In this document: positions 5,689-62,772 of the stretch, piece after piece | How positions within the stretch are numbered: position 1 is the stretch's first letter | Layout of the letters: every line of letters begins with the position of its first letter | Translations under genes and position numbers: made by a program | The notes under the pieces: model-generated | The model's input: only the letters and a program-made list of their open reading frames with translations | What the model was told of the DNA's origin: nothing | The model's database searches: none | IMG/VR virus record: IMGVR_UViG_3300026519_000001 | Span: 30,262-94,261 of that record | Length of the DNA: 64,000 nucleotides | Reading direction: 5' to 3' (one strand) | From: a virus

Positions 5689-6888
5689 TTATTTATTTTT
5701 TCTAACCCCTTTTAATATATCGGATGTTAATTTTAATTCTTTACTAAAATCCCTTAGATTAACCTCTTTATCTTCTTTAGCCTGCTGTTCAAGTATTGCA
5801 ATTGCTTCTTCTTCACTAACCCCTGAAAGTTCCATCATTGTAGAGATAGACTTTGATTTTTGCTCAGGAGTTCCATTTTTATAATTGCCTAGTATGTCAT
5901 ATCCATATAACTTAGATATTCTAGCATTATCAAATATTGTTTTACCTATTGTTCCTAGATTATTACCTATACTAGATTGTAAATCAGCCCTAGCAGATTC
6001 AAATGCAGCAAGATTAGCAGCATCTGCATCATCAGCTCTTGTATTAATTTGAGAGTTAATTCTAGCTTTGTTCAAGTCTAATCTAGCTATTGAAGTATTT
6101 TTGCGTAAATTTAATGCATCTCCCCTAGCTTTTTCGGAAGCATTTAATTGAGCAGTTTTTCTATCTTCTACTTGTGCCGCCATTCGAGCTTGCCCTATTG
6201 ATGAAGCTAAATTAGCTGAATTAGCCAATTGATTAGCAACAAATGAACCTGCATTACCTCTGGAAGCATTTATATTATTCTGAGCAAATCTAGCAGAAGA
6301 TTCTATCATTCCTCTTTCAATATTATTAATATCTATATTTTTAAAATTAGTTTCCCTAGGTTTAAACTTTGATAAAGCTCCTGTTATATCTGCATTAATA
6401 GTACGCCTTGGAGTTGGGGCAGCTCGTTCTAATTGTCCTAATTGTAATCCATCTATAAGTAATGGCGCAGCCTGTAAGCCTAAGCCTAAAATACCACCAC
6501 CATTACCAAACATATTACCACCATCAGCAAATTTTTCATTGTAAGTAGAAGAAGCTGCTCTATTAAAAGTATCTTGCTGTTCAGTAGGTTGGAATCCTAC
6601 ACCTTCATTTCCTGCAGTTGGTGGGGCAGCTTGAAAATTATCTTGTTGCTGTGGAATATCACTTTGGAATTGTTGTTGCTGCTTTTCTTGAACTTGCTGT
6701 CTAGTAGCTTCTAAGTTAGTTTGTATCTCATTTTTTTGTTTAATATACTCCTGAGCCTCTTCTAGTGATTTCATTTCACTATTAAGTGCCCTAATAGATA
6801 TAGGATCAAATCTATCTTTATATGTTTTATTTATTTCTTCTGCTATTTTAGCAAAAGACATTCCTTTATATTTTTCTTGTAATGCCAT
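5689..6888 (-). CDS. Ala/Gln/Asn-rich virion protein candidate (399 aa)
   Basis: The 399-residue protein has a helical N-terminus, then a Gln-rich segment at about residues 55-85 (QQVQEKQQQQFQ), then a Gly-rich patch (GGNMFGNGGGILGLG) near residues 124-137. A long Ala/Asn/Arg helix rich in ASSIGQARMAAQ-type sequence follows. Low complexity of this kind is common in phage internal virion proteins. It lies directly between two other large candidates, one base away on each side, so it probably belongs to the same particle component. No domain was recognised and the function is unknown. Confidence 0.6.
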   Translation of the reverse strand: MALQEKYKGMSFAKIAEEINKTYKDRFDPISIRALNSEMKSLEEAQEYIKQKNEIQTNLEATRQQVQEKQQQQFQSDIPQQQDNFQAAPPTAGNEGVGFQPTEQQDTFNRAASSTYNEKFADGGNMFGNGGGILGLGLQAAPLLIDGLQLGQLERAAPTPRRTINADITGALSKFKPRETNFKNIDINNIERGMIESSARFAQNNINASRGNAGSFVANQLANSANLASSIGQARMAAQVEDRKTAQLNASEKARGDALNLRKNTSIARLDLNKARINSQINTRADDADAANLAAFESARADLQSSIGNNLGTIGKTIFDNARISKLYGYDILGNYKNGTPEQKSKSISTMMELSGVSEEEAIAILEQQAKEDKEVNLRDFSKELKLTSDILKGVRKNK

Positions 6889-7662: not shown

Positions 7663-10600
7663 TTAATTTATTGTATATGAGAAGGTGATGTCATAAAGAG
7701 TAAATTTATAATCCTCTTCTGAGTGATTAAATTCTAATTCTATTAAAGCCCATGGTGCTCTAATTCTATTTCTAGTACTTTCTTCTCTAGGTAATGTTAT
7801 ATTAAATTCCCTAAATTTCCTTCTAACATTACTTCCATATATTAATTCTTTATTCCCAGATGTTTGATAAGAAGTATCAACTTTTATATTGTTAAATGTA
7901 ATATTAAATTTATCTACGTTATCAGAAATTAATTTAGTATCAGTAATATAATTTATGTTGTCTATTATTTTATCACTAGAAGGCTTGTCATTCATTAATA
8001 ATTTAATCTTAGAAGAATAATATACATCATAAAAAGTATTATAAAATCCTTTATCATGCTCCCATATATCATCAGTAAATTGACCATGATTTGCAGTAAA
8101 CATTTTACTATTGATATTAAAATAAATATAGGGTTTAAAATCATAAAAAGAAGTAAAGCCATCTGCTATTAAATTGTAGGATACTGTGAATGAATCATCA
8201 TCAGTTAAGAAGCTAAAATAAATATCTTTAAATCTATTATCATAATAAGATACTACATTATTAAAATTTAATGTAGAAACCCCTTCTACACCTTTAAGTA
8301 AGTTATTGTAATTATTATTTGTATACTCTTTTGTATAATTATACAACCCCTTAGTTAAACTAATTTCTTCGTTTTGACTAGCGATTCTATTAATACTATT
8401 ATTAAGTATGTCAAAATAAAAAACACCAGATTCAACAGAAGTTATACTTTTTGGATGTAACGTTCCTGAATTTGTAGAAATATAATCATATCTTTGCAGC
8501 AACTCTCCTGAGCCTAATAAAATTGGAACATTATCACTTGTGGATAATTGCACCCTAGGATTAATAGAAAGATAAGAAACAGCACTTCTTTGAAATGCAA
8601 ACATTACATTTCTAAGTTTAACTAATCCAGTAATTTCTCCATGCTCTGTTTCAAGAGTTATTTTATCATTAACAGAAATACTAGTCCAATTATCAATTTG
8701 TTCTCCTAAAAGTTTAATAGGACTAGCAATTATTTCATCACTAAAAACATTTTGCGAAGTAAAATTAAAAGGCTTACTAATAGCTTTGTTTATGATATTT
8801 TGTTGTTCATATACAGAATTATAGCCATAGGCATTATTTTCATCTAAAGCCTCACCTGTATTTTTAGATTCTAATATATCATACCTCATGTTAGAATTAA
8901 CAGAAGATTCACATACAAAATCAACAATTTCACTTATAGTAGCTTCAACTTCAGAAGACCCAGCATTATTTTCAAAAATTCTTAATAATGGAGATTCCTG
9001 AATAAATGTATCACCAAATTTTCCATTAATATTTGAAACACTAACTAGTTCTAATTCTGAATAAGGAACATAAACATTTCTTTGCCTATCCGCATAAGTG
9101 TTTCCACCATATTGTGGTATATCATCATTATAAAATTCAACTATTAAAGCATAATCATCATCAGGAGTGCTTACATCTTCCCATAAGGCTAAAGAGTTAT
9201 CCCATAAATCTTCTGATGTAAAAAATAATTGAGAACCACTATAATAAGTAAATTTAGTTTCAAAATCCATATCTACTAATGGAGTGTATATTACAGTAGT
9301 GTCAATTAAAATTTGAGGGTCTGCATCAAAATCTTCTCCTTCTTTAGTTTGAACAGACACATCGGCTTCAATAGGAGGTATAAAAGCAACTGTTTTATCC
9401 GTAGACAAATTACTTACTTCAAATCCATTTCTGCTACTATGTAACAAAACACTGCCGAATTTTCTTTTGTAAAATACTTTTTTAAATTCATATCTATTTA
9501 ACCTAACAGAATCAGAAGCCCTTTCGAAATCATTTCTTATATCTCCCAATAAGAAATATCCGCCACCACCTTCATTTTTAAACCATCTATCAACATTAGC
9601 ATCAGAATCATTTTGAACAGGGTCGTCTACAGTATATTGAAATACCTCTGCATTTTTTGCATCTAATTCGTAAGATTTTCTCAACTCTACTGGCTCATCC
9701 TTATTATTAGAAGCAGAACTATATGCCGTATAAAAATCAGCTTTAGAATACGAATTTGTATTTTTTTGAAACCCAACTACTCTTATTTTATAATCATCTC
9801 CAACAGCTAATTTAGATTGATTAAATATAAACTCTGGACTTATAATATTAAAATGTATTTTACTTGCGTAAGCATTACCTATATACGTGCCAGCACTATC
9901 TATTTCAGGAATTATATCTCCCCTATCAGGATATATAGTCCCAGCTGCAGAGTTTCTATTGAATGCTTGTGGTTTTTGAAATTTTTCTCCCCTATATGTA
10001 TCTGGATATGAAGCTCCAGTAGGACCATCCAATATAGGATTTATTGGATTTGTTGTATTTGGATCAACTCTAAATGTTCTAGTTAAAGGTATACTATATA
10101 ATTTTTCTAAATTAGACCCTACAGGAAAAATTGCTATATCCTTATAATCATTTTGTTGAAAAACACATGGATTAACTAAGCCTTGTCCTTTAACAGTTTT
10201 ATCATATTCCTTTCTTTCAACAATAACTAATCTATAGCTAACTGCCTCTGCTGGCATATTATTAACCTTAACTTCAATATAAGCAAGTTCTGCTTCATTT
10301 GAAGAATTAATAAGATTAAGATATTCTTTTTCATTAGCAGCTGGTATTTTTAGATCAGCTATCCATTTAGCAAATGACTCTTCTCCATTATTATTTTTAA
10401 AAACCAATGCAACTCTATACCTCTCACCTCTTTTTAAAGAGGTATCAGAATTTGATTCAAATATCGTATTTAAACTTTTTTGTTTATATCTAACCCAATA
10501 TTCTACATTTGGACCAATACCACCTATTGCATTCCTAGCTACATCATCAGGTAAATATTGCACTTCTCCAAGTCTATAAACAGCAGATGGATCATCTATA

Positions 10601-44943: not shown

Positions 44944-45017
44944 CTAGGTACGATCCATTGGTGTGGTTGCCTCACTTGGAATGAGGATTATTAAAGGTTC
45001 GAATCCTTTTACTTAGA
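44944..45017 (+). tRNA. tRNA-Pro (TGG)
   Basis: The acceptor stem CTAGGTA/TACTTAG pairs over 7 bp (one G-T), with discriminator A. The anticodon arm CCTCA-CTTGGAA-TGAGG gives TGG, and the T arm is AAAGG-TTCGAAT-CCTTT. CCA is not encoded. It is the first of four closely spaced plus-strand tRNAs. Confidence 0.88.
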
Positions 45018-45023
45018 CTAAAT

Positions 45024-45095
45024 GTTCCCATCGTCTAATGGTTAGGACGTTAGCTTTTCAAGCTAAAGATCAGAGTTCAATCCTCTGTGGGAATA
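45024..45095 (+). tRNA. tRNA-Glu (TTC)
   Basis: Acceptor GTTCCCA/TGGGAAT pairs with one G-T at the first position; discriminator is A. The anticodon arm TTAGC-TTTTCAA-GCTAA gives TTC, and the T arm is CAGAG-TTCAATC-CTCTG. It lies six bases after tRNA-Pro. Confidence 0.9.
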
Positions 45096-45101
45096 CTATA
45101 A

Positions 45102-45174
45102 TGAGGAATAGCACAACTGGTAGTGCATCAGATTTTGATTCTGAAGATTGTAAGTTCGAATCTTGCTTCCTCAT
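45102..45174 (+). tRNA. tRNA-Gln (TTG)
   Basis: Acceptor TGAGGAA/TTCCTCA is a perfect 7-bp stem, with discriminator T. The anticodon arm TCAGA-TTTTGAT-TCTGA gives TTG, and the T arm is GTAAG-TTCGAAT-CTTGC. It lies six bases after tRNA-Glu. Confidence 0.88.
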
Positions 45175-45180
45175 CACATC

Positions 45181-45251
45181 CCTCCTATAGTTCAATGGTA
45201 GAATATCTGCTTGTGATGCAGAAGATGTGGATTCGAATTCCACTAGGTTGA
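45181..45251 (+). tRNA. tRNA-His (GTG) with imperfect acceptor stem
   Basis: The anticodon arm TCTGC-TTGTGAT-GCAGA gives GTG, the T arm is GTGGA-TTCGAAT-TCCAC, and the D arm is normal. The acceptor arms CCTCCTA and TAGGTTG pair at only five of seven positions, with C-T and T-T mismatches at positions 2 and 3. Either it is repaired or tolerated, or the gene is decaying. Confidence 0.75.
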
Positions 45252-45258
45252 CATTGAA

Positions 45259-45814: not shown

Positions 45815-46249
45815 ATGAATAATACACAAATCAATCTCACAAAACCTCTTGTATTACTTTACAAAGAATACACAAATTCATTACTTAAAACCTCTTGTGT
45901 TACCGTACAGTACACAAATTCATTATCTAACCATAGTATTGGTGGTAATATTGCCACATCATCTCAATTAATTATTATGAACAAGAATTCAATAATCAAA
46001 ATATCTGTAATCAAAGAAGCAACTGAGAAGGGGTTTCAAACATTACAGTGTAGTGTGTCTAATGGATTTGCTGTTAATAGCAAGCCTACATACATACTAT
46101 CAACACCAGAAGCTATTAAAGCTGCGGAATTAGTAGAAGGTATGGACATATCTGAAATGGTTCACAAAATGGACATGAAAGAAACTACTACTAAAAGCAT
46201 TGATACTTCAACTGGCGAGGAGTTTGAATTTAACTGGTTAACAGTTTAG
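45815..46249 (+). CDS. First protein gene of the rightward arm, unknown (144 aa)
   Basis: The 144-residue protein is Ser/Thr/Asn-rich and beta-like at first (VTVQYTNSLSNHS, SSQLIIMNKNSIIKISVI) and acidic-helical at the end (EAIKAAELVEGMDISEMVHKMDMKETT). It has no signal or membrane segment and no recognised family. Being the first gene of the early arm, it could act early against the host, but this is positional inference only. A terminator-like RNA element overlaps its stop. Confidence 0.65.
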   Translation: MNNTQINLTKPLVLLYKEYTNSLLKTSCVTVQYTNSLSNHSIGGNIATSSQLIIMNKNSIIKISVIKEATEKGFQTLQCSVSNGFAVNSKPTYILSTPEAIKAAELVEGMDISEMVHKMDMKETTTKSIDTSTGEEFEFNWLTV

Positions 46250-46305
46250 TTAGCAAGGGGAGAAATCCTCTTGTTTTCATTTGTTTTATTTTAAATAAGC
46301 TAACT
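46248..46305 (+). ncRNA. Nested-stem RNA element / terminator after first early gene
   Basis: An inner hairpin pairs CAAGGGGA (46254-46261) with TCCTCTTG (46266-46273), one G-T, with a GAAA-type loop, and is followed by a T-rich stretch, so it looks like an intrinsic terminator. An outer stem AGTTAGC (46248-46254) with GCTAACT (46299-46305) can enclose it. The inner and outer stems share one base, so they are partly alternative. Confidence 0.5.
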
Positions 46306-46340
46306 TTATATAAAGAAGTTGTAATTATTAATTAATTATC

Positions 46341-46514
46341 ATGACTAAAAAGAAATTCATTAATCAGATGTTAAGATTAGGTATTGAGTTATCATCAACA
46401 ACTAATGTAGTTGAGAATGATATTATTATTGAGGCTGCTAAAATACTTCATAATAACTATATTAGAAATCTCACTATTTCTGATTTGGCTAAGTATCATA
46501 AAGAAGAACTTTAA
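46341..46514 (+). CDS. Short helical protein (57 aa)
   Basis: ATG at 46341 encodes MTKKKFINQMLRLGIELSS and ends DLAKYHKEEL. It is helical and charged and lacks a membrane segment. The start is preceded by an AT-rich leader (TTAATTATC), the usual context here. No family is recognised. It was too short for automatic listing and was translated by hand. Confidence 0.6.
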   Translation: MTKKKFINQMLRLGIELSSTTNVVENDIIIEAAKILHNNYIRNLTISDLAKYHKEEL

Positions 46515-46526
46515 TAACTTAATATT

Positions 46527-46619
46527 ATGAAAAAATTAATTGAACCAGTAATGCTATTCATTGGAATAGTATTACTATTATTGTATGTTATTAGTATTGC
46601 GCAACTTATATTAATGTAA
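46527..46619 (+). CDS. Single-helix membrane micropeptide (30 aa)
   Basis: ATG at 46527 gives MKKLIEPVMLFIGIVLLLL followed by YVISIAQLILM. Almost the whole peptide is one membrane helix with a charged start. It lies 12 bases after the previous gene. Micropeptides of this kind recur in this region; some phages use them to alter the host membrane. Function unknown. Confidence 0.5.
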   Translation: MKKLIEPVMLFIGIVLLLLYVISIAQLILM

Positions 46620-46662
46620 GTTGTTCCTTATATATAGGAGTAATAAACTTAAATTTAACATT

Positions 46663-46764
46663 ATGGATGATGAAACAGCTTTTTTAAAAAAACTAATTAG
46701 AAATGCAATACTGTTTATTGTATGGATTTATTTATGCACTCAAATTAGTGGATGTAGATTATAG
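46663..46764 (+). CDS. Small membrane peptide with terminal Cys (33 aa)
   Basis: ATG at 46663 gives MDDETAFLKKLIRNAILFIV, then WIYLCTQISGCRL. One hydrophobic helix covers about residues 13-25. It precedes an RNA-like element. The call rests on the open frame and the similar peptides nearby. Confidence 0.45.
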   Translation: MDDETAFLKKLIRNAILFIVWIYLCTQISGCRL

Positions 46765-46781
46765 TAATGACTTTTTTATAT

Positions 46782-46877
46782 CTAATTTAGTATTTGCAAT
46801 CTGTAAATATATAATTTTGAAAGACTATGGTCTGATTAGCCATTGACTATTTAAAATTAATGACAAATACTAATTAG
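46782..46877 (+). ncRNA. Structured RNA element with long closing stem (96 nt)
   Basis: CTAATTTAGTATTTG (46782-46796) pairs with CAAATACTAATTAG (46864-46877) over 14 bp with a single bulge. The 67-base interior has no good ORF and can make a smaller hairpin around ATGGTCTGATTAGCCAT. It lies between two micro-genes, 17 bases after the 33-aa ORF and 35 bases before the 45-aa ORF. No known RNA family was recognised. Confidence 0.5.
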
Positions 46878-46912
46878 GTATAAAGAAGTGTTTACTATTA
46901 ATACTTAAAAAT

Positions 46913-47050
46913 ATGGAAGAATCAAATAAATTATCTTATGAAGAATGGTATGCACTCTTTGAAGATGAAATAAATATAGAACTTGCAGAAATAGGTGCAA
47001 CTAGAGAATTAGAATTTGAATTGAGATATGAAAAGTATTTAGATATATAA
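46913..47050 (+). CDS. Short acidic protein (45 aa)
   Basis: ATG at 46913 gives MEESNKLSYEEWYALFEDE and ends RYEKYLDI. It is strongly acidic and helical, unlike the membrane peptides beside it. It lies between two RNA-like elements. No family is recognised. Confidence 0.55.
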   Translation: MEESNKLSYEEWYALFEDEINIELAEIGATRELEFELRYEKYLDI

Positions 47051-47059
47051 GTCTAACAT

Positions 47060-47222
47060 CTAGCAAATACAAAATAAATAACAGGTAATTCTTATACCAA
47101 CAAAATAGTAAAGGTTTTTTTACTAACGTATTTAATATAAAATCCTTAAAGTTCTGTTATTTTAATTGTTAAACATATTCTATATTAATACCATGGAAAA
47201 TTATATATAACTTATTTGCTAG
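47060..47222 (+). ncRNA. Structured RNA element with nested stems (163 nt)
   Basis: The ends CTAGCAAATA (47060-47069) and TATTTGCTAG (47213-47222) are perfectly complementary over 10 bp. Inside, AAATAACAG (47076-47084) pairs perfectly with CTGTTATTT (47154-47162), and TAGTAAA...TTTACTA forms a third hairpin. Nested perfect stems over 160 bases without a gene point to a folded transcript. It begins nine bases after the 45-aa ORF. Confidence 0.55.
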
Positions 47223-47271
47223 CAATAAAAGTTGACTCTAATATTGTCGTAAATAAGGTATTATATTAATT

Positions 47272-47357
47272 AAATAATAAATAAAGTTTCTAAGCCTCTT
47301 TGTATAAGAGCAGCATTAAAAACCAAACTGGATAGGGAGGTTCTTTATTTATTATTT
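47272..47357 (+). ncRNA. Structured RNA element with 15-bp perfect closing stem (86 nt)
   Basis: AAATAATAAATAAAG (47272-47286) is perfectly complementary to CTTTATTTATTATTT (47343-47357). The 56-base interior contains a CTCTT-TGTAT-AAGAG hairpin and a GGGAGGTT that can pair imperfectly with AAGCCTC, giving a compact multi-helix shape. No ORF fits. The shape recalls a tRNA-sized junction RNA but there is no T-arm. Confidence 0.55.
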
Positions 47358-47391
47358 TTACTAATTATAAGTTATTAACATTGTGGATAAC

Positions 47392-47400
47392 TTGTTGGTA
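47392..47400 (-). promoter_or_regulatory. Single DnaA-box-like site
   Basis: TGTGGATAA is an exact match to the complement of the DnaA consensus TTATCCACA. It lies in the 176-base gap before the 77-aa gene, next to TTGGTAACTT. One isolated 9-mer can occur by chance, so origin function is weakly supported. Confidence 0.3.
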
Positions 47401-47533
47401 ACTTAGTAAATGTGTTGTTTAGAGTTAATTGAGTGGGTTTATTAGGGGTTAGGTATCAACATCCCACACCTTCAACCTCAACAAAATTATCAATTTCAAC
47501 CACATATCATTAAAAACTATAACACTAAACACT

Positions 47534-47767
47534 ATGAAAGGAACATTAAAAAAATGTATTATAGCAAAATACGATAAAACAATTAAAGAGCCACCATACT
47601 TAACTATCAAAATTAACGAAATAGAAGTATTAGAGCCTAAAGAAGATGATTTAGGTAGTTTATTTGCTAAAATATTAAAGCAAGCCTGTATAGATAAGGG
47701 ATATATTTTTAAATTCTATACTTTAAGTAGAGAAAAGAATTTTGATTATGAAATTGTAGTTTATTAA
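47534..47767 (+). CDS. Hypothetical protein (77 aa)
   Basis: The 77-residue product has a beta start (KCIIAKYDKTIKEPPYLTIKINEIEVL), an acidic turn, and a helix (LFAKILKQACIDKGY). The preceding 70 bases are C/A-rich (AACATCCCACACCTTCAACC), unusual in this genome. It lies 12 bases before the KH-domain gene and may be co-expressed with it. No family recognised. Confidence 0.6.
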   Translation: MKGTLKKCIIAKYDKTIKEPPYLTIKINEIEVLEPKEDDLGSLFAKILKQACIDKGYIFKFYTLSREKNFDYEIVVY

Positions 47768-47779
47768 CATTAAAATATC

Positions 47780-48034
47780 ATGAAACAAACAAAAGCTAAC
47801 ACTATAAAATCATTATTTGAAACTTATTTTGATGGATGTTATGGAATAGAGTCACAACCAAATACATCAAATACTTATACAATGGGAGTTTGCAAATTAA
47901 CTTTTAATAAAGATATATTAACAGTATATCTTAGAAGACCTGGATTATTAATAGGCAAGGGTGGAGAAATTATTAATGATTTAAGAAAATATTTAGGATG
48001 TAAAGTTCATATAACTGAAATAAAAAAACTTTAA
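47780..48034 (+). CDS. Small KH-domain (type II) RNA-binding protein
   Basis: The 84-residue product contains YLRRPGLLIGKGGEIINDLRK-type sequence (residues 50-70) with the GKGG loop at residues 59-62, followed by YLGCKVHITEI. The order RPGxLIGKGGxxIxxL plus a beta strand is that of the type II KH domain of ribosomal protein S3. KH domains hold single-stranded RNA or DNA in the groove by the GxxG loop. The N-terminal 45 residues are a helix and two strands, so this is essentially a stand-alone domain. It is encoded between RNA-like elements, which suggests a role with them. Confidence 0.75.
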   Translation: MKQTKANTIKSLFETYFDGCYGIESQPNTSNTYTMGVCKLTFNKDILTVYLRRPGLLIGKGGEIINDLRKYLGCKVHITEIKKL

Positions 48035-48071
48035 AGAAACTTACTTTAATAAAATAATAAATCACTTAAAC

Positions 48072-48160
48072 ACCTTGGAAATTAAATAACTGTGTAAATT
48101 GCAATAATAGTTGTTATATTTACATAGAAGAATTCACGTTCTTATATAACGTGCCAAGGT
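48072..48160 (+). ncRNA. Three-way-junction-like RNA (89 nt)
   Basis: A closing stem ACCTTGG (48072-48078) pairs with CCAAGGT (48154-48160), extended outside by AATAAAT/ATTTATT after a bulge. Inside are two hairpins: CTGTGTAAAT/ATTTACATAG (48090-48099, 48118-48127; one G-T) and CACGTT/AACGTG (48135-48140, 48148-48153), the latter stacked on the closing stem. Three coherent stems in 89 bases strongly suggest a folded RNA. It follows the KH gene by 37 bases. Confidence 0.65.
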
Positions 48161-48183
48161 ATTTATTTATTAAAAAAATCATT

Positions 48184-48270
48184 ATGGAAAGAATATCGAA
48201 AGAAGAATTTACAGGAATATTATTATTAGGAATAATAATAATATTATCATTTGTATTAATAATAACTTAA
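48184..48270 (+). CDS. Single-helix membrane micropeptide (28 aa)
   Basis: ATG at 48184 gives MERISKEEFTGILLLGIII followed by ILSFVLIIT. A charged start is followed by one membrane helix. It lies between two RNA-like elements, in the recurring pattern of this region. Function unknown. Confidence 0.5.
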   Translation: MERISKEEFTGILLLGIIIILSFVLIIT

Positions 48271-48285
48271 AATTAAGATACTAAT

Positions 48286-48335
48286 CATATAATCACTAAT
48301 GATATATTAGTAAAGAAGGAAGCTTTGATTATATG
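48286..48335 (+). ncRNA. Compact hairpin RNA element (50 nt)
   Basis: CATATAATCA (48286-48295) and TGATTATATG (48326-48335) pair perfectly over 10 bp. The interior contains a CTAAT-GATAT-ATTAG hairpin. It ends one base before the next, larger element, so they may be parts of one transcript. Confidence 0.45.
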
Positions 48336-48336
48336 T

Positions 48337-48472
48337 AAAAAACCCCCTAAAGCACGGCATATATATGAGGTGAAGAGCTTAGACACCATACTGCTTGTTA
48401 ATTATGATGATTAAAGTAATTATCTAAGAAAATTAATAGGGAATGTAAAACAAAGATCATTGGGGGTTTTTT
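48337..48472 (+). ncRNA. Structured RNA closed by A6C5/G5T6 stem (136 nt)
   Basis: AAAAAACCCCC (48337-48347) pairs with GGGGGTTTTTT (48462-48472) over 11 bp. The interior holds AGCA...TGCT-type pairing, a GGTG...CACC hairpin around AAGAGCTTAGA, and a CATATATATG palindrome. The G5T8 end could also serve as a terminator arm. No ORF occupies the stretch. This is one of the most convincing RNA candidates here. Confidence 0.6.
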
Positions 48473-48498
48473 TTAACTATAACATTAAACACTTAATC

Positions 48499-48603
48499 AT
48501 GACAATAATAACAACTATAATTTTAGTAACATTTATAATAATGTGTATATATAATATTTTAAATGATAACGATAATGATGATGATAAATTAACTTTTTAT
48601 TAA
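48499..48603 (+). CDS. Membrane micropeptide with acidic tail (34 aa)
   Basis: ATG at 48499 gives MTIITTIILVTFIIMCIYNI, then an acidic tail with DNDNDDDK and a short end. One membrane helix is predicted by eye. It sits between the A6C5-closed RNA and the next element. Confidence 0.45.
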   Translation: MTIITTIILVTFIIMCIYNILNDNDNDDDKLTFY

Positions 48604-48622
48604 TCAAAATATAAAACATTTA

Positions 48623-48798
48623 AATAATATAATATCTTCAAAGTATAACTTCAAATTAGCGAGTGAAACAGATTTGTAATAATTGGAAGTAATTACCATT
48701 TATGTCACAAATAGAATACAGATACCCTGCTCTTTAGTGCACTAAAACAGGTCATGCTTAATTAACATGAGTTAAAATATCAGAGATATAATATTATT
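48623..48798 (+). ncRNA. Large structured RNA candidate (176 nt)
   Basis: AATAATATAATATCT (48623-48637) pairs with AGATATAATATTATT (48784-48798) at 14 of 15 positions. The interior contains the CATGCTTAATTAACATG palindrome and CTGC..GCA-like short stems. No gene fits. AT-rich stems can arise by chance, so the length of the match is the main support. Confidence 0.45.
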
Positions 48799-48871
48799 TA
48801 TTTAAGTATCAAATAATGCTTTAAAATTTACTACTAAGCAGAGAAGTTTTTAAAGATGTAATCAAATAAAT

Positions 48872-48967
48872 AATAAGGTGCTTGATACGTAGAGCTGAAG
48901 TATAATGATTAATTATCTACGTTGTAGAAAGCAAGCTAAGTGTACAGTTTTAACAGTCAGCCTTATT
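48872..48967 (+). ncRNA. Nested-helix RNA element (96 nt)
   Basis: Three nested perfect stems are visible: AATAAGG/CCTTATT (48872-48878, 48961-48967), GCTTG/CAAGC (48880-48884, 48932-48936) and ACGTAG/CTACGT (48887-48892, 48917-48922). The order and spacing are consistent with one folded transcript. Mixed-composition stems make chance less likely than for pure AT stems. Confidence 0.55.
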
Positions 48968-49024
48968 TTAAAACAACTCCAAAACATTGAGGAGTATAAA
49001 GAATATACTAATAGAAATATTAGA

Positions 49025-49100
49025 TGTGTTATAGCCTTGAGAAAGCTATGCAAGGTGAAATTAATAAATTAAGTTAACTAGACTTGCTTATCATAACACA
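49025..49100 (+). ncRNA. Nested-helix RNA element (76 nt)
   Basis: TGTGTTAT (49025-49032) pairs with ATAACACA (49093-49100), enclosing CCTTG/CAAGG (49035-49039, 49051-49055). The rest of the interior is AT-rich. The element lies in the gene-free stretch 48,604-49,270 together with its neighbours. Confidence 0.45.
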
Positions 49101-49129
49101 AATTAGTTCTCAGCAAGTACTAAATTTAG

Positions 49130-49167
49130 CATATAATTACAAAAGAAGAAATGACTTCAATTATATG
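49130..49167 (+). ncRNA. Hairpin element (38 nt)
   Basis: CATATAATT (49130-49138) and AATTATATG (49159-49167) pair over 9 bp around an inner GAAG-AAATGA-CTTC hairpin. A further hairpin TCTAG-TCTAAG-CTAGA follows at about 49192-49207. The remaining bases to 49,270 hold no gene. Confidence 0.4.
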
Positions 49168-49270
49168 AAACTAATCATTTGATATTCTAGTCTAAGCTAG
49201 ATATAATAAGTGACCTTAATAGATAAAGCTAAAGGTGCTAATAACAATTAAACAATTAAACTAAAATAAT

Positions 49271-49504
49271 ATGAAAAAAATTAAATTATTATTTATAATG
49301 TTATTATTAATAATATCTATTGGATGTAAAGTAAGAAGTATAGGATTTAAAAACAAGTATAAATTTACTATTCGAGTAGATAATATGAGATTTCATACAA
49401 ATAATTTAAAAGTTGAAGAATCAGTTTTACACTTTATTGACAAATCTGGAAAAAGTTATCATATTCCAACTGTTAATATTGAATATATTAAAGAAAATTA
49501 TTAA
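49271..49504 (+). CDS. Small lipoprotein (77 aa)
   Basis: The N-terminus MKKIKLLFIMLLLIISIGC is a lipoprotein signal with the lipidated Cys at residue 19. The mature part of about 58 residues is basic then beta-like (YKFTIRVDNMRF, YHIPTVNIEYI). It could sit in the inner or outer membrane and may affect superinfection. It lies at the end of the RNA-rich zone. Confidence 0.65.
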   Translation: MKKIKLLFIMLLLIISIGCKVRSIGFKNKYKFTIRVDNMRFHTNNLKVEESVLHFIDKSGKSYHIPTVNIEYIKENY

Positions 49505-49615
49505 ATGAAAAATAAAAAAACATATAATATAGGGAGATGGTTAAATTATGGAATAGTATTATTAATAATAATTTTAATAATATTTTTAACTCATTTTATA
49601 ATTACAATTATATAA
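49505..49615 (+). CDS. Membrane micropeptide (36 aa)
   Basis: ATG at 49505 directly follows the stop of the lipoprotein gene and gives MKNKKTYNIGRWLNYGIVLL, then a hydrophobic stretch of Ile and Leu. One membrane helix with a basic N-terminus is visible. Tight spacing to the lipoprotein suggests co-translation. Confidence 0.5.
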   Translation: MKNKKTYNIGRWLNYGIVLLIIILIIFLTHFIITII

Positions 49616-49643
49616 TATTTATTACAATTTAAACAATAAAATT

Positions 49644-49721
49644 ATGACACCATTTTATATAGTGATAACAATAGCAATAGTTGGAGTAATGAGAATTATT
49701 CAAACTGCATTAAAAAGATGA
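49644..49721 (+). CDS. Membrane micropeptide (25 aa)
   Basis: ATG at 49644 encodes MTPFYIVITIAIVGVMRII and ends QTALKR. It is one hydrophobic helix with a basic end. A hairpin (49735-49757) follows the stop. Confidence 0.4.
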   Translation: MTPFYIVITIAIVGVMRIIQTALKR

Positions 49722-49734
49722 TTTTTCATAATGT

Positions 49735-49757
49735 AATAAAAGAAACTTTCTTTTATT
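49735..49757 (+). terminator. Terminator-like hairpin
   Basis: AATAAAAGA (49735-49743) pairs perfectly with TCTTTTATT (49749-49757) around a 5-base loop, with T-rich sequence after it. It likely separates the micropeptide genes from the HD-domain gene. Confidence 0.55.
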
Positions 49758-49781
49758 AATTTTAAAATTATTCTTTCTTTT

Positions 49782-49813
49782 ATTTTAACATTTTAACATT
49801 TTAACATTTTAAC
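49782..49813 (+). repeat. Four tandem ATTTTAAC repeats
   Basis: The 8-mer ATTTTAAC occurs four times without a break (49782-49813), ten bases before the ATG of the HD-domain gene. It could be a protein-binding or translation-control tract, or simple slippage. Copy number may vary between isolates. Confidence 0.8.
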
Positions 49814-49822
49814 ATTGAAATT

Positions 49823-50329
49823 ATGAACATTGTAGAAAAATCTAAAAAATATGCATGTGAATCCCATGCCAATACTAATCATTATTATGATTTTGATAAG
49901 CCATATAGTACACATTTAAATATGGTATATAATATAGCTAAACACTTTATATCGTTAGTTAATGATGAAGACCAAGATAATGTATTGGCAGCTTGTTGGA
50001 CACACGATATTATTGAAGATGCAAGACAAACATATGATGATGTTTTAAAAAATACTAATAAAACAATAGCTGATATTACTTATGCTCTTACTAATGAAAA
50101 AGGTAAGAATAGAAAAGAAAGAGCTAATAATAAATATTTTGAAGGCATTAGAAATATACCAAATTCTTCTTTTGTTAAATTGTGTGATAGAATAGCTAAT
50201 GTTACTTATTCTAAAAAAAATAAATCACCAATGTTTATTAAATATAAAAAAGAAAATAGTATATTTGTAAAGTCTATAGATCAATTTGGATTAAAACCAA
50301 TGATACAATATTTAGATGACATTAGTTAA
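49823..50329 (+). CDS. HD-domain protein, SpoT/MESH1-like
   Basis: The 168-residue protein has the HD ligand set of (p)ppGpp hydrolases: H31 in YSTHLNMV, H61-D62 in CWTHDIIED with E65-D66, and D122 in VKLCDRIANV. VTYALTNEKGKNRKER-type sequence (residues 85-100) matches the conserved T-x-E-x-G-x-x-R-x-E/K stretch of that family. The size equals a stand-alone small alarmone hydrolase. It could remove (p)ppGpp or another pyrophosphate-containing nucleotide during infection. The gene ends seven bases before the tmRNA. Confidence 0.75.
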   Translation: MNIVEKSKKYACESHANTNHYYDFDKPYSTHLNMVYNIAKHFISLVNDEDQDNVLAACWTHDIIEDARQTYDDVLKNTNKTIADITYALTNEKGKNRKERANNKYFEGIRNIPNSSFVKLCDRIANVTYSKKNKSPMFIKYKKENSIFVKSIDQFGLKPMIQYLDDIS

Positions 50330-50336
50330 TAAATAT

Positions 50337-50686
50337 GGGGCTGACTGATATTGACAGGATGATATTGATAATATATGCAAGCACGTGATGATATGAGACA
50401 CGTATGAAACGTATCAACTTAATAATTAACAAGAATGAAAATTCTGCTGAAGACATACAAGGTATGGAATCAGCTTTAGCTGAAGCTAAAGTAATCTTAA
50501 TGACTCCTGTAAAGGAAGAAAGAATGCTAATTGCAGCTTAATCGTTTAATTGTATTTGATAAAGGTTTATTAATTCCTTAAAAATTAAATAATGCGAATA
50601 TATAATTAGTAATAATTATTAAAAGCTTGTAATATCATATATTATTTATACATAGCTGGACCAGAGTTTGATTCTCTGCAGCTCCA
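50337..50686 (+). ncRNA. ssrA: Phage-encoded tmRNA
   Basis: The 5' end GGGGCTGACTGATATTGACAGG and 3' end GACCAGAGTTTGATTCTCTG plus CAGCTCCA match the tRNA-like domain of bacterial tmRNA. Acceptor GGGGCTG pairs with CAGCTCC, and the T arm is CAGAG-TTTGATT-CTCTG. CCA is not encoded. The length of 350 nt is normal. tmRNA rescues stalled ribosomes by acting as tRNA-Ala then mRNA. The reading frame that ends at TAA (about 50539-50541) codes for a tag ending KEERMLIAA and stays open back past 50408. The tag is therefore long, possibly more than 30 residues, and ends LIAA instead of LAA. Resume codon and pseudoknots are not resolved by eye. Confidence 0.9.
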
Positions 50687-50692
50687 CTTAAC

Positions 50693-50740
50693 CAAATATG
50701 GTACTCAGTCTGTAAAAGGGTAGCTGAGTTACTATATTTG
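50693..50740 (+). ncRNA. Hairpin directly after tmRNA
   Basis: CAAATATGGTACTCAG (50693-50708) pairs almost fully with CTGAGTTACTATATTTG (50724-50740), with one extra base and one mismatch. It begins six bases after the tmRNA 3' end. It may be the terminator or 3' processing signal of the tmRNA, although no T-run follows. Confidence 0.5.
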
Positions 50741-50770
50741 AATTTTATATTTAAATTAAACAAAAGTAAA

Positions 50771-53763: not shown

Positions 53764-53914
53764 CCTTAGTTGGTATTTGTTTTGGAACTGGTAAAAGCAC
53801 TTAGCAAATAAACGCCAAAATAAGAAATTATTGGCAAACTTTTGTAGATACATAAAAACAACCAATATAAACTGCAACGGAATACAGCTATGAAGCGTTG
53901 CCGACTAAAACATT
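53764..53914 (+). repeat. Cassette spacer 5
   Basis: After CCTTAGTTGGTATTTG the stretch has GCCAAAATAAGAAATTATTGGC, a hairpin with 6-bp arms GCCAA/TTGGC. GCAACGGAATACAGCTATGAAG and CGTTGCCG follow before the next ATG. GCAACG/CGTTGC can pair. It holds no ORF. Confidence 0.4.
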
Positions 53915-62140: not shown

Positions 62141-62518
62141 ATGAAAAAAGTAAAAGTTGATGAATTAACAATTGATGGAACTGTTTACATTCCAAAATGT
62201 TCTGTTTTTGAAAAAGCAGAGTTAAAAAATGGTATGCCATTTGTAATGGTAAGAACAGAAAGTGCTGGTGTTCATTGTGGATATATGAAAAGCAGAAATG
62301 AATCAGAAGTAGTTTTATTAGAATCTATTAGAATTTGGAGTTGGTCAGGTGCTGCTTCATTATCTCAGTTAGCAATGGAGGGAACAAAAAATCCAGAAAC
62401 TTGCAAATTTGCAATGCCAATAAAAACAAGTTTGATTTTATTAAATTCTATTGAAATAATTGAAATAACAGAAGAAGCTAAAATTTCAATCCAAAATGTA
62501 AAATCATGGAAAAAATAA
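62141..62518 (+). CDS. DUF6948-like protein (125 aa)
   Basis: It contains VRTESAGVHCGYMKSRN and RIWSWSGAASLSQLAMEG, which I recognise as the conserved pattern of a phage family listed as DUF6948, and ends SIQNVKSWKK. Its function is unknown. A Gly-X repeat ORF overlaps its end by 13 bases; related genes are often followed by such repeats. Confidence 0.7.
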   Translation: MKKVKVDELTIDGTVYIPKCSVFEKAELKNGMPFVMVRTESAGVHCGYMKSRNESEVVLLESIRIWSWSGAASLSQLAMEGTKNPETCKFAMPIKTSLILLNSIEIIEITEEAKISIQNVKSWKK

Positions 62519-62772
62519 ATTCTGGCTCTGGCTCTGGTACTGGTAATGGTGATGGTAATGGTGATGGTGATGGTTCTGGTTATGGTGATGGTTCTGGTTA
62601 TGGTTCTGGTTCTGGTTATGGTGATGGTACTGGTTATGGTGATGGTTCTGGTTATGGTTCTGGTTATGGTTCTGGTAATGGTTCTGGTAATGGTGATGGT
62701 AATGGTGATGGTTCTGGTTCTGGTTATGGTGATGGTACTGGTTCTGGTTCTGGTTATGACAGAATATATTAA
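62506..62772 (+). CDS. Gly-X dipeptide-repeat ORF (88 aa)
   Basis: After MEKIN the frame is an uninterrupted alternation of Gly with Ser, Asp, Asn, Tyr or Thr, ending GYDRIY. At DNA level it is GGT plus one of TCT, GAT, AAT, TAT or ACT. It overlaps the DUF6948-like gene's end. The strict pattern suggests either a real flexible Gly-rich protein or a repeat expanded by slippage. The other frames (Met-Val and Trp-Leu type) are less plausible. Confidence 0.65.
   Translation: MEKINSGSGSGTGNGDGNGDGDGSGYGDGSGYGSGSGYGDGTGYGDGSGYGSGYGSGNGSGNGDGNGDGSGSGYGDGTGSGSGYDRIY

Follow-up and report, generated by a model that had tools for sequence, protein, structure and literature searches.

In a 64-kb window of viral DNA (positions 30262-94261 of the 94,261-base IMG/VR record IMGVR_UViG_3300026519_000001), which comes from a crAss-like phage, we found an RNA element of about 180 nucleotides (nt) among the micro-genes of the early operon (48621-48800, plus strand). 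Homology and the covariation of its family confirmed, at the level of sequence, that it is a genuine RNA element. The comparison with its phage homologues indicates that it belongs, as a diverged copy, to a lineage of phage RNAs 175-190 nt long, whose 3' part is the Rfam freshwater-1 motif (RF02979). An earlier note on this DNA had described a chain of nine or more closing-stem RNAs alternating with micro-genes and had known of no described family with this layout; this is wrong for the element that it placed at 48623, a diverged relative of RF02979. The explanation that we favor, with good but not full confidence, joins this RNA to two or three further elements of the array and to the mechanism proposed below. 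In this explanation, at least one genuine noncoding RNA of the trans-acting type (48621-48800) would lie between the micro-genes of the early operon, and the array probably also contains two or three others, which would be either structured RNAs or segments processed from messenger RNA (mRNA).

The first evidence was an Rfam search with permissive thresholds, which matched the 3' domain of freshwater-1 at 48724-48776 on the plus strand (36.6 bits, E 1e-5 to 3e-5). This stretch has the freshwater-1 core (CCUGCUCU and AACAGG) with two adjoining hairpins. Furthermore, the element was matched by R1, a 189-position covariance model built from 35 distinct aligned phage copies, with the window sequence absent from the training alignment. 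The R1 match at 48634-48787 covered model positions 1-189 with 46.2 bits and an E-value of 5e-8 over 474 kb (1.6e-9 with filters off), these E-values being rough because of a short calibration. The closing stem pairs 48621-48638 with 48783-48800, and this 17-pair stem is present in the unconstrained fold. All the 33 inner family pairs are standard in the window copy, whose sequence allows every inner helix of the family to form, several of them with changed bases (GUAU/AUAC, AUUUG/CAAAU, GAUA/UAUC, and UUAG/CUAA).

Some observations weigh against this assignment. The score of the window copy is far under the RF02979 gathering cut-off of 72 bits, at about half of it, and for this reason we label the element a diverged homologue and not a member by Rfam's threshold. 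The family fold in the window copy is 5.7 kcal/mol above the minimum free energy, and its stability relative to shuffled sequences is only moderate (z -2.1). The copy is flanked by micro-genes, not by transfer RNAs (tRNAs): the family typically lies within a tRNA array, and the window tRNAs are on the same strand 3.4 kb upstream. No copy was found in deposited (cultured) phage records by nucleotide search. Similarly, a nucleotide search for the window array in phage records gave no match, and the TerL, HD, KH, and 45815 proteins, used as baits, retrieved no close relative with the same array in which the covariation of the other elements could be checked; the nearest TerL proteins are 66-67% identical, and their contigs end before the array region.

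The evidence for the family as a whole comes from its homologues. A search pattern for the freshwater-1 core, with the spacers left free, matched 95 IMG/VR stretches, with about one expected by chance according to our estimate. In the carrier contigs, a longer RNA located between tRNA genes is conserved, and the core makes up its 3' part only. The phage RNA and RF02979 have the same core (ACCCUGCUCU-hairpin-AACAGGU), 3' hairpins, strand, and order, whereas the Rfam motif is 62 nt long (the 3' third) and the phage RNA, with its 5' domain and closing stem, is about 175-190 nt long. The scanned phage copies score 54-86 bits with RF02979. The family fold has, besides its closing stem, the P2/P3/P4 domain (5' half), the P6 arm, which bears the core hairpin, and hairpin P7; many copies have a further 3' hairpin (P8). 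In the 35-copy alignment, 96.2% of the cells are paired, a value reached by none of 500 shuffles and falling to 44% or less when the alignment is slid, and 37 of the 48 family pairs show changes on both sides. The closing stem differs in sequence in almost every copy and keeps its pairing, with 8/9 pairs changed on both sides. Compensatory changes in homologues, which the earlier note had proposed to seek by covariation, are indeed present in the family of this element. The palindromes of the P5 loop (UAGCUA, UAAUUA, and UCAUGA) are not counted as evidence, since UCGCAA is frequent there as well. A literature search did not find the name "freshwater-1 RNA"; the original description presumably lies outside that search and may cover the 5' domain and the phage origin.

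Freshwater-1 RNA is widespread but little studied. The crAss-like capsid family was present in 15 of the 80 carrier contigs tested (the window's own record excluded), and the T4-type capsid protein Gp23 in 25 of 33 carriers tested, the 33 mostly lacking the crAss-like capsid and the 25 including contigs of 195-310 kb. A same-strand tRNA lies at most 300 nt away in 97 of the 110 loci, with 8.4 same-strand tRNAs per locus vs 0.04 on the opposite strand. Several carrier arrays contain a transfer-messenger RNA (tmRNA), and the large phage RNA GOLLD exceeded its cut-off in 7/41 carriers and gave a match under the cut-off in one that is crAss-like. Among 42 crAss-like and related records scanned with R1, the RNA was present only in the window and in G071, a crAss-like carrier in which it has small genes on both sides and a tRNA about 0.9 kb away; this patchy spread suggests exchange between phages. 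A search of bacteria for the exact core, with one genome for each species, found no copy. Two contigs of bacteria that fitted the core pattern were rejected for having no R1 match; also rejected were an R1 match within an open coding region of a structural operon (L104, 9829-9956) and weak R1 and RF02979 matches inside a predicted gene of Kolpuevirus OQ198718.

The 3' domain of the window copy includes a fully palindromic hairpin (UUAGUGCACUAA, 48734-48745, plus strand), in which we propose GUGCAC (48737-48742) as the kissing loop. Since the first search had GUGCAC fixed in the loop, the scan was repeated with the loop free, and it returned 114 stretches, or 113 after the removal of one chance match (L222). 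The loop hexamer was GUGCAC in 94 of them and UGGCCA in 14, with GUCGAC, AUGCAU, and AGCGCU occurring once each; the remaining loops were one GUGCAU, which self-pairs via G-U, and one GUACAC, which is not palindromic. A self-complementary loop is thus kept in about 111/113 family members although its sequence changes. Four of the five distinct inner tetranucleotides are palindromic, which has a probability of about 7e-5 by our own arithmetic, under a null in which only the loop-closing pair is constrained and each palindrome has a probability of 1/16.

This switching among palindromes indicates that the RNA probably forms a homodimer via kissing loops. The same reasoning supported the L9.3 loop of OLE and the L21a loop of GOLLD, two kissing loops seen by cryogenic electron microscopy (PMC12286853). 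The loop could instead be a site acting at the DNA level, such as the target of a protein or nuclease, as its variants are also palindromes when read as DNA; we consider this improbable, because the hexamer invariably caps an RNA hairpin that covaries and GOLLD, a neighbor in some arrays, uses palindromic kissing loops (PMC12286853). As regards the RNA dimer that we favor, GOLLD (RF02032) and ROOL form homo-oligomers through symmetric kissing loops (PMC12286853), whereas in the 48621-48800 family the dimer is deduced from sequence. GOLLD and ROOL are also phage-encoded, near tRNA islands, and of unknown function, and GOLLD shares arrays or contigs with the extended freshwater-1 RNA. They differ in being unrelated to it in sequence and structure and in measuring from about 660 to more than 800 nt vs 190, and the RF02032 covariance model had no match in the window phage (G000). 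GUGCAC is also the palindromic hairpin loop of the dimerisation initiation site of human immunodeficiency virus 1 (subtype A/Mal), which has no homology with 48621-48800 and represents a convergence of loop sequence only. Another small phage RNA acting as a loop-loop oligomer is the pRNA of phi29, which differs in belonging to other phages and in having no Rfam match in the window, where no link to packaging was seen.

To place the other stems of the array against shuffled controls, each gap was folded whole, so that the boundaries were not chosen. On the plus strand, the z values were -2.5 for 46250-46340, -5.4 for 46765-46912, -1.8 for 47051-47533, -3.9 for 48035-48183, -2.2 for 48271-48498, and -1.5 for 48604-49270. 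The best single stem of each of the six gaps, compared with 300 shuffles per gap, was significant in gaps 46765 (p 0.003), 48035 (p 0.03), and 48271 (p 0.007), with a six-gap combined p of 0.0014, and not significant in the other three, including the large gap 48604-49270. Owing to G-U pairs, and as expected for RNA, the folds of the best gaps are more stable on the plus strand than on the minus (-5.4 vs -2.75 for 46765-46912 and -3.9 vs -2.2 for 48035-48183).

The three significant gaps contain candidate structured untranslated elements, all on the plus strand. The one at 46770-46889, filling the gap between two micro-genes, has inner hairpins and an 18-bp closing stem (46770-46787 with 46872-46889, two G-U pairs); the one at 48047-48174 has two hairpins inside a closing stem made of several parts, among them CCUUGG/CCAAGG. 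No homologue was found for either of them. The third, at 48337-48472, is closed by AAAAAACCCCC/GGGGGTTTTTT; a second R1 match in it (48338-48471, 13.7 bits, E 0.03) was too weak, and we do not claim it as a homologue. A possible further element on the same strand, at 47272-47357, has a perfect 15-bp closing stem, with z -3.0 when cut to fit and, for its whole gap, z -1.8 and a best-stem p of 0.22. The stretch 49130-49215 also reaches z -3.9 if cut to fit, within a gap that is not significant.

Whether most of the stems of the earlier note are chance pairings in 75% A+T DNA, with boundaries picked by hand, is in our judgment an even bet. Indeed, enrichment is almost absent in fixed 120-nt windows (9.4% with z < -2.5, vs 6.2% in a 33 kb control and 8-9.5% in the flanking early DNA), and the elements at 48872 (z -0.8) and 49025 (z -1.0), like the stems of the large gap, are at chance; on the other side, gaps 46765, 48035, and 48271 exceed their shuffles, and homologues support 48621-48800. 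Strong stems are also present in gaps farther along the operon (combined p 0.005), so the stem excess is not peculiar to the 46-49 kb region. As only three of the six gaps are significant, fixed windows are flat, and other early gaps are similar, a chain of "nine or more" elements is overstated: about half of them beat chance, and the others, 48872 and 49025 included, do not. The view of small folded RNAs between micro-genes is fair for at least one element, on the basis of homologue covariation, and two or three others show an energy excess without a homologue; roughly half of the elements have neither. A further early gap, 53764-53914, has a 10-bp closing stem (p 0.03) and z -2.1 on the plus strand only.

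The stems could also be cis-acting parts of polycistronic mRNAs (terminators, processing sites, or 3' stabilisers) that tune the expression of the micro-genes without giving rise to separate RNAs, a reading to which we assign a little under an even chance. Coherently with it, the first element of the earlier note, at 46248, turned out to be mostly a terminator-like hairpin (46252-46275, plus strand; 10 bp, GAAA loop, T-rich tail) located 3' of gene 45815-46249. It has the layout of an intrinsic terminator, namely a hairpin that bears G+C and, after it, a T-rich stretch, and four terminator-like sites were found vs 0.9 expected. The 3' end of 48337-48472 (G5T8) and the strong stems of the other early gaps point in the same direction. 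Conversely, a loop of 56-130 nt that contains ordered hairpins does not resemble a terminator, and the 48621-48800 family is conserved across unrelated phages in differing gene contexts. A derivation of the elements from tRNAs or mobile introns, as remnants, would fit their position directly after the tRNA cluster; we judge it very improbable, since no tRNA or intron family matched 46200-50750 even at E 10, a tmRNA excepted.

As regards the separate RNAs of our favored explanation, chains of closing-stem RNAs do exist in phages as far as conservation and covariation can tell, since the tRNA arrays of large phages, both related and unrelated ones, hold several such families, and there the separators are mostly tRNAs and not micro-genes. 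The carrier arrays, masked for tRNAs, open reading frames (ORFs), and freshwater-1 RNA, yielded further conserved untranslated blocks, not counting the tRNA pieces and leaders recovered with them. Two have covarying closing stems: FAM3, of about 93 nt, with 10/20 pairs changed on both sides (L159_1396_1913, in offsets from the freshwater-1 core, and L130 ~8740-8844), and FAM6, of about 127 nt, with an A-rich/U-rich closing stem and 7/20 pairs changed on both sides (L130 ~9231-9362). FAM1 (about 210 nt; L109 ~5722-5933, minus strand, and L101 8064-8260, plus strand), found also in the crAss-like contig G024, and FAM7 (about 220 nt; L107, ~260-480 nt 5' of the core of freshwater-1) are untranslated and conserved in sequence. 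No Rfam match covers any of these four families. Neither the FAM3 and FAM6 models (R2 and R3) nor the other array families were found in the window, which leaves its other elements without a family assignment.

The crAss-like origin of the window is evident from its capsid protein (PHROG 11589, E 5e-120) and from its terminase (PHROG 6681), which is about 40% identical to those of Steigviridae crAss-like phages. The structural genes are on the minus strand; the plus strand carries a cluster of Pro, Glu, Gln, and His tRNAs (44944-45252, identified with ARAGORN and Rfam) followed by the early genes. Between 46 and 49 kb, genes of 28-84 amino acids (aa) with coding-like codon use are interleaved with ORF-less gaps of 90-670 nt, and the alternation of micro-genes and untranslated gaps described in the earlier note is therefore real. 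The micro-genes, all on the plus strand, include 46341-46514 (57 aa, codon score +0.18), 46913-47050 (45 aa, +0.40), 47534-47767 (77 aa, +0.22), and two with hydrophobic products, 48184-48270 (28 aa, +0.19) and 48499-48603 (34 aa, +0.18). A further one, 47780-48034, encodes an 84-aa KH-domain putative RNA-binding protein (Pfam KH_1 E 1.2e-5, KH_2 E 1e-4). This protein is a plausible partner of an array RNA; its relatives, 60-61% identical, are encoded in two contigs (L087 and L088) without the extended freshwater-1 RNA.

Downstream in the same operon, a diverged phage tmRNA (50337-50689, plus strand) matches the whole RF00023 model (positions 1-374, E 4e-12) with 36.4 bits, under the gathering cut-off of 47 bits, and its tRNA-like ends pair (5'-GGGGCU with AGCUCC-3'). 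It begins with GGGGCUGA, ends with CAGCUCCA, and was missed by ARAGORN; a frame overlapping it (50404-50541) ends in ...LIAA and resembles a tag peptide of unusual length. A 13-bp hairpin (46547-46576) lies inside a 30-aa gene (46527-46619), and the low-complexity gene 62506-62772 encodes a Gly/Ser/Asp/Tyr repeat protein (GSGYGDGSGYGS...). The leader AACTATAAnACTAAAnACTATGAAA, likely a phage translation or promoter signal, occurs immediately 5' of start codons in the window (47514-47539) and in the crAss-like relative L014 (1876-1901 and 2074-2099). The early operon of this relative has two untranslated gaps on the minus strand, 3530-2996 (535 nt) and 715-471 (245 nt), both adjoining micro-genes, the latter with z -2.1 on the coding strand.

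Based on its same-strand position, we propose that the 48621-48800 RNA would be transcribed within a long tRNA-array or early transcript. It could then be excised at or beside the closing stem, for which the pairing is observed and the processing is proposed, and the stable RNA would dimerise via the palindrome in the loop of the 3' hairpin, as the covariation of the palindrome suggests. Judging from the company of the RNA, the homodimer might serve phage translation or takeover together with tRNAs, tmRNA, and GOLLD-type RNAs, a role that we regard as rather unlikely. A broader and still tentative idea, somewhat less doubtful than that role, is that the early operon could be dedicated to making several dimerising or scaffold RNAs, unrelated to one another and each with its closing stem, between micro-genes of which one encodes a KH partner, as one case of a general strategy of phage tRNA-array repertoires.

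If this is true, tRNA arrays would store a repertoire of structured RNAs, including freshwater-1, GOLLD, and unnamed families. An Rfam motif that had been neglected and whose origin was unknown gains a home in the tRNA arrays of large phages, a full length, and a fold, and the proposed kissing-loop dimer provides a testable assembly mechanism for freshwater-1 RNA. This RNA is also connected in this way with GOLLD. For crAss-like phages, common in animal guts, specific untranslated DNA is now singled out for testing. More in general, phage tRNA arrays, usually read as codon supply only, hold several conserved untranslated RNA families missed by current annotation.

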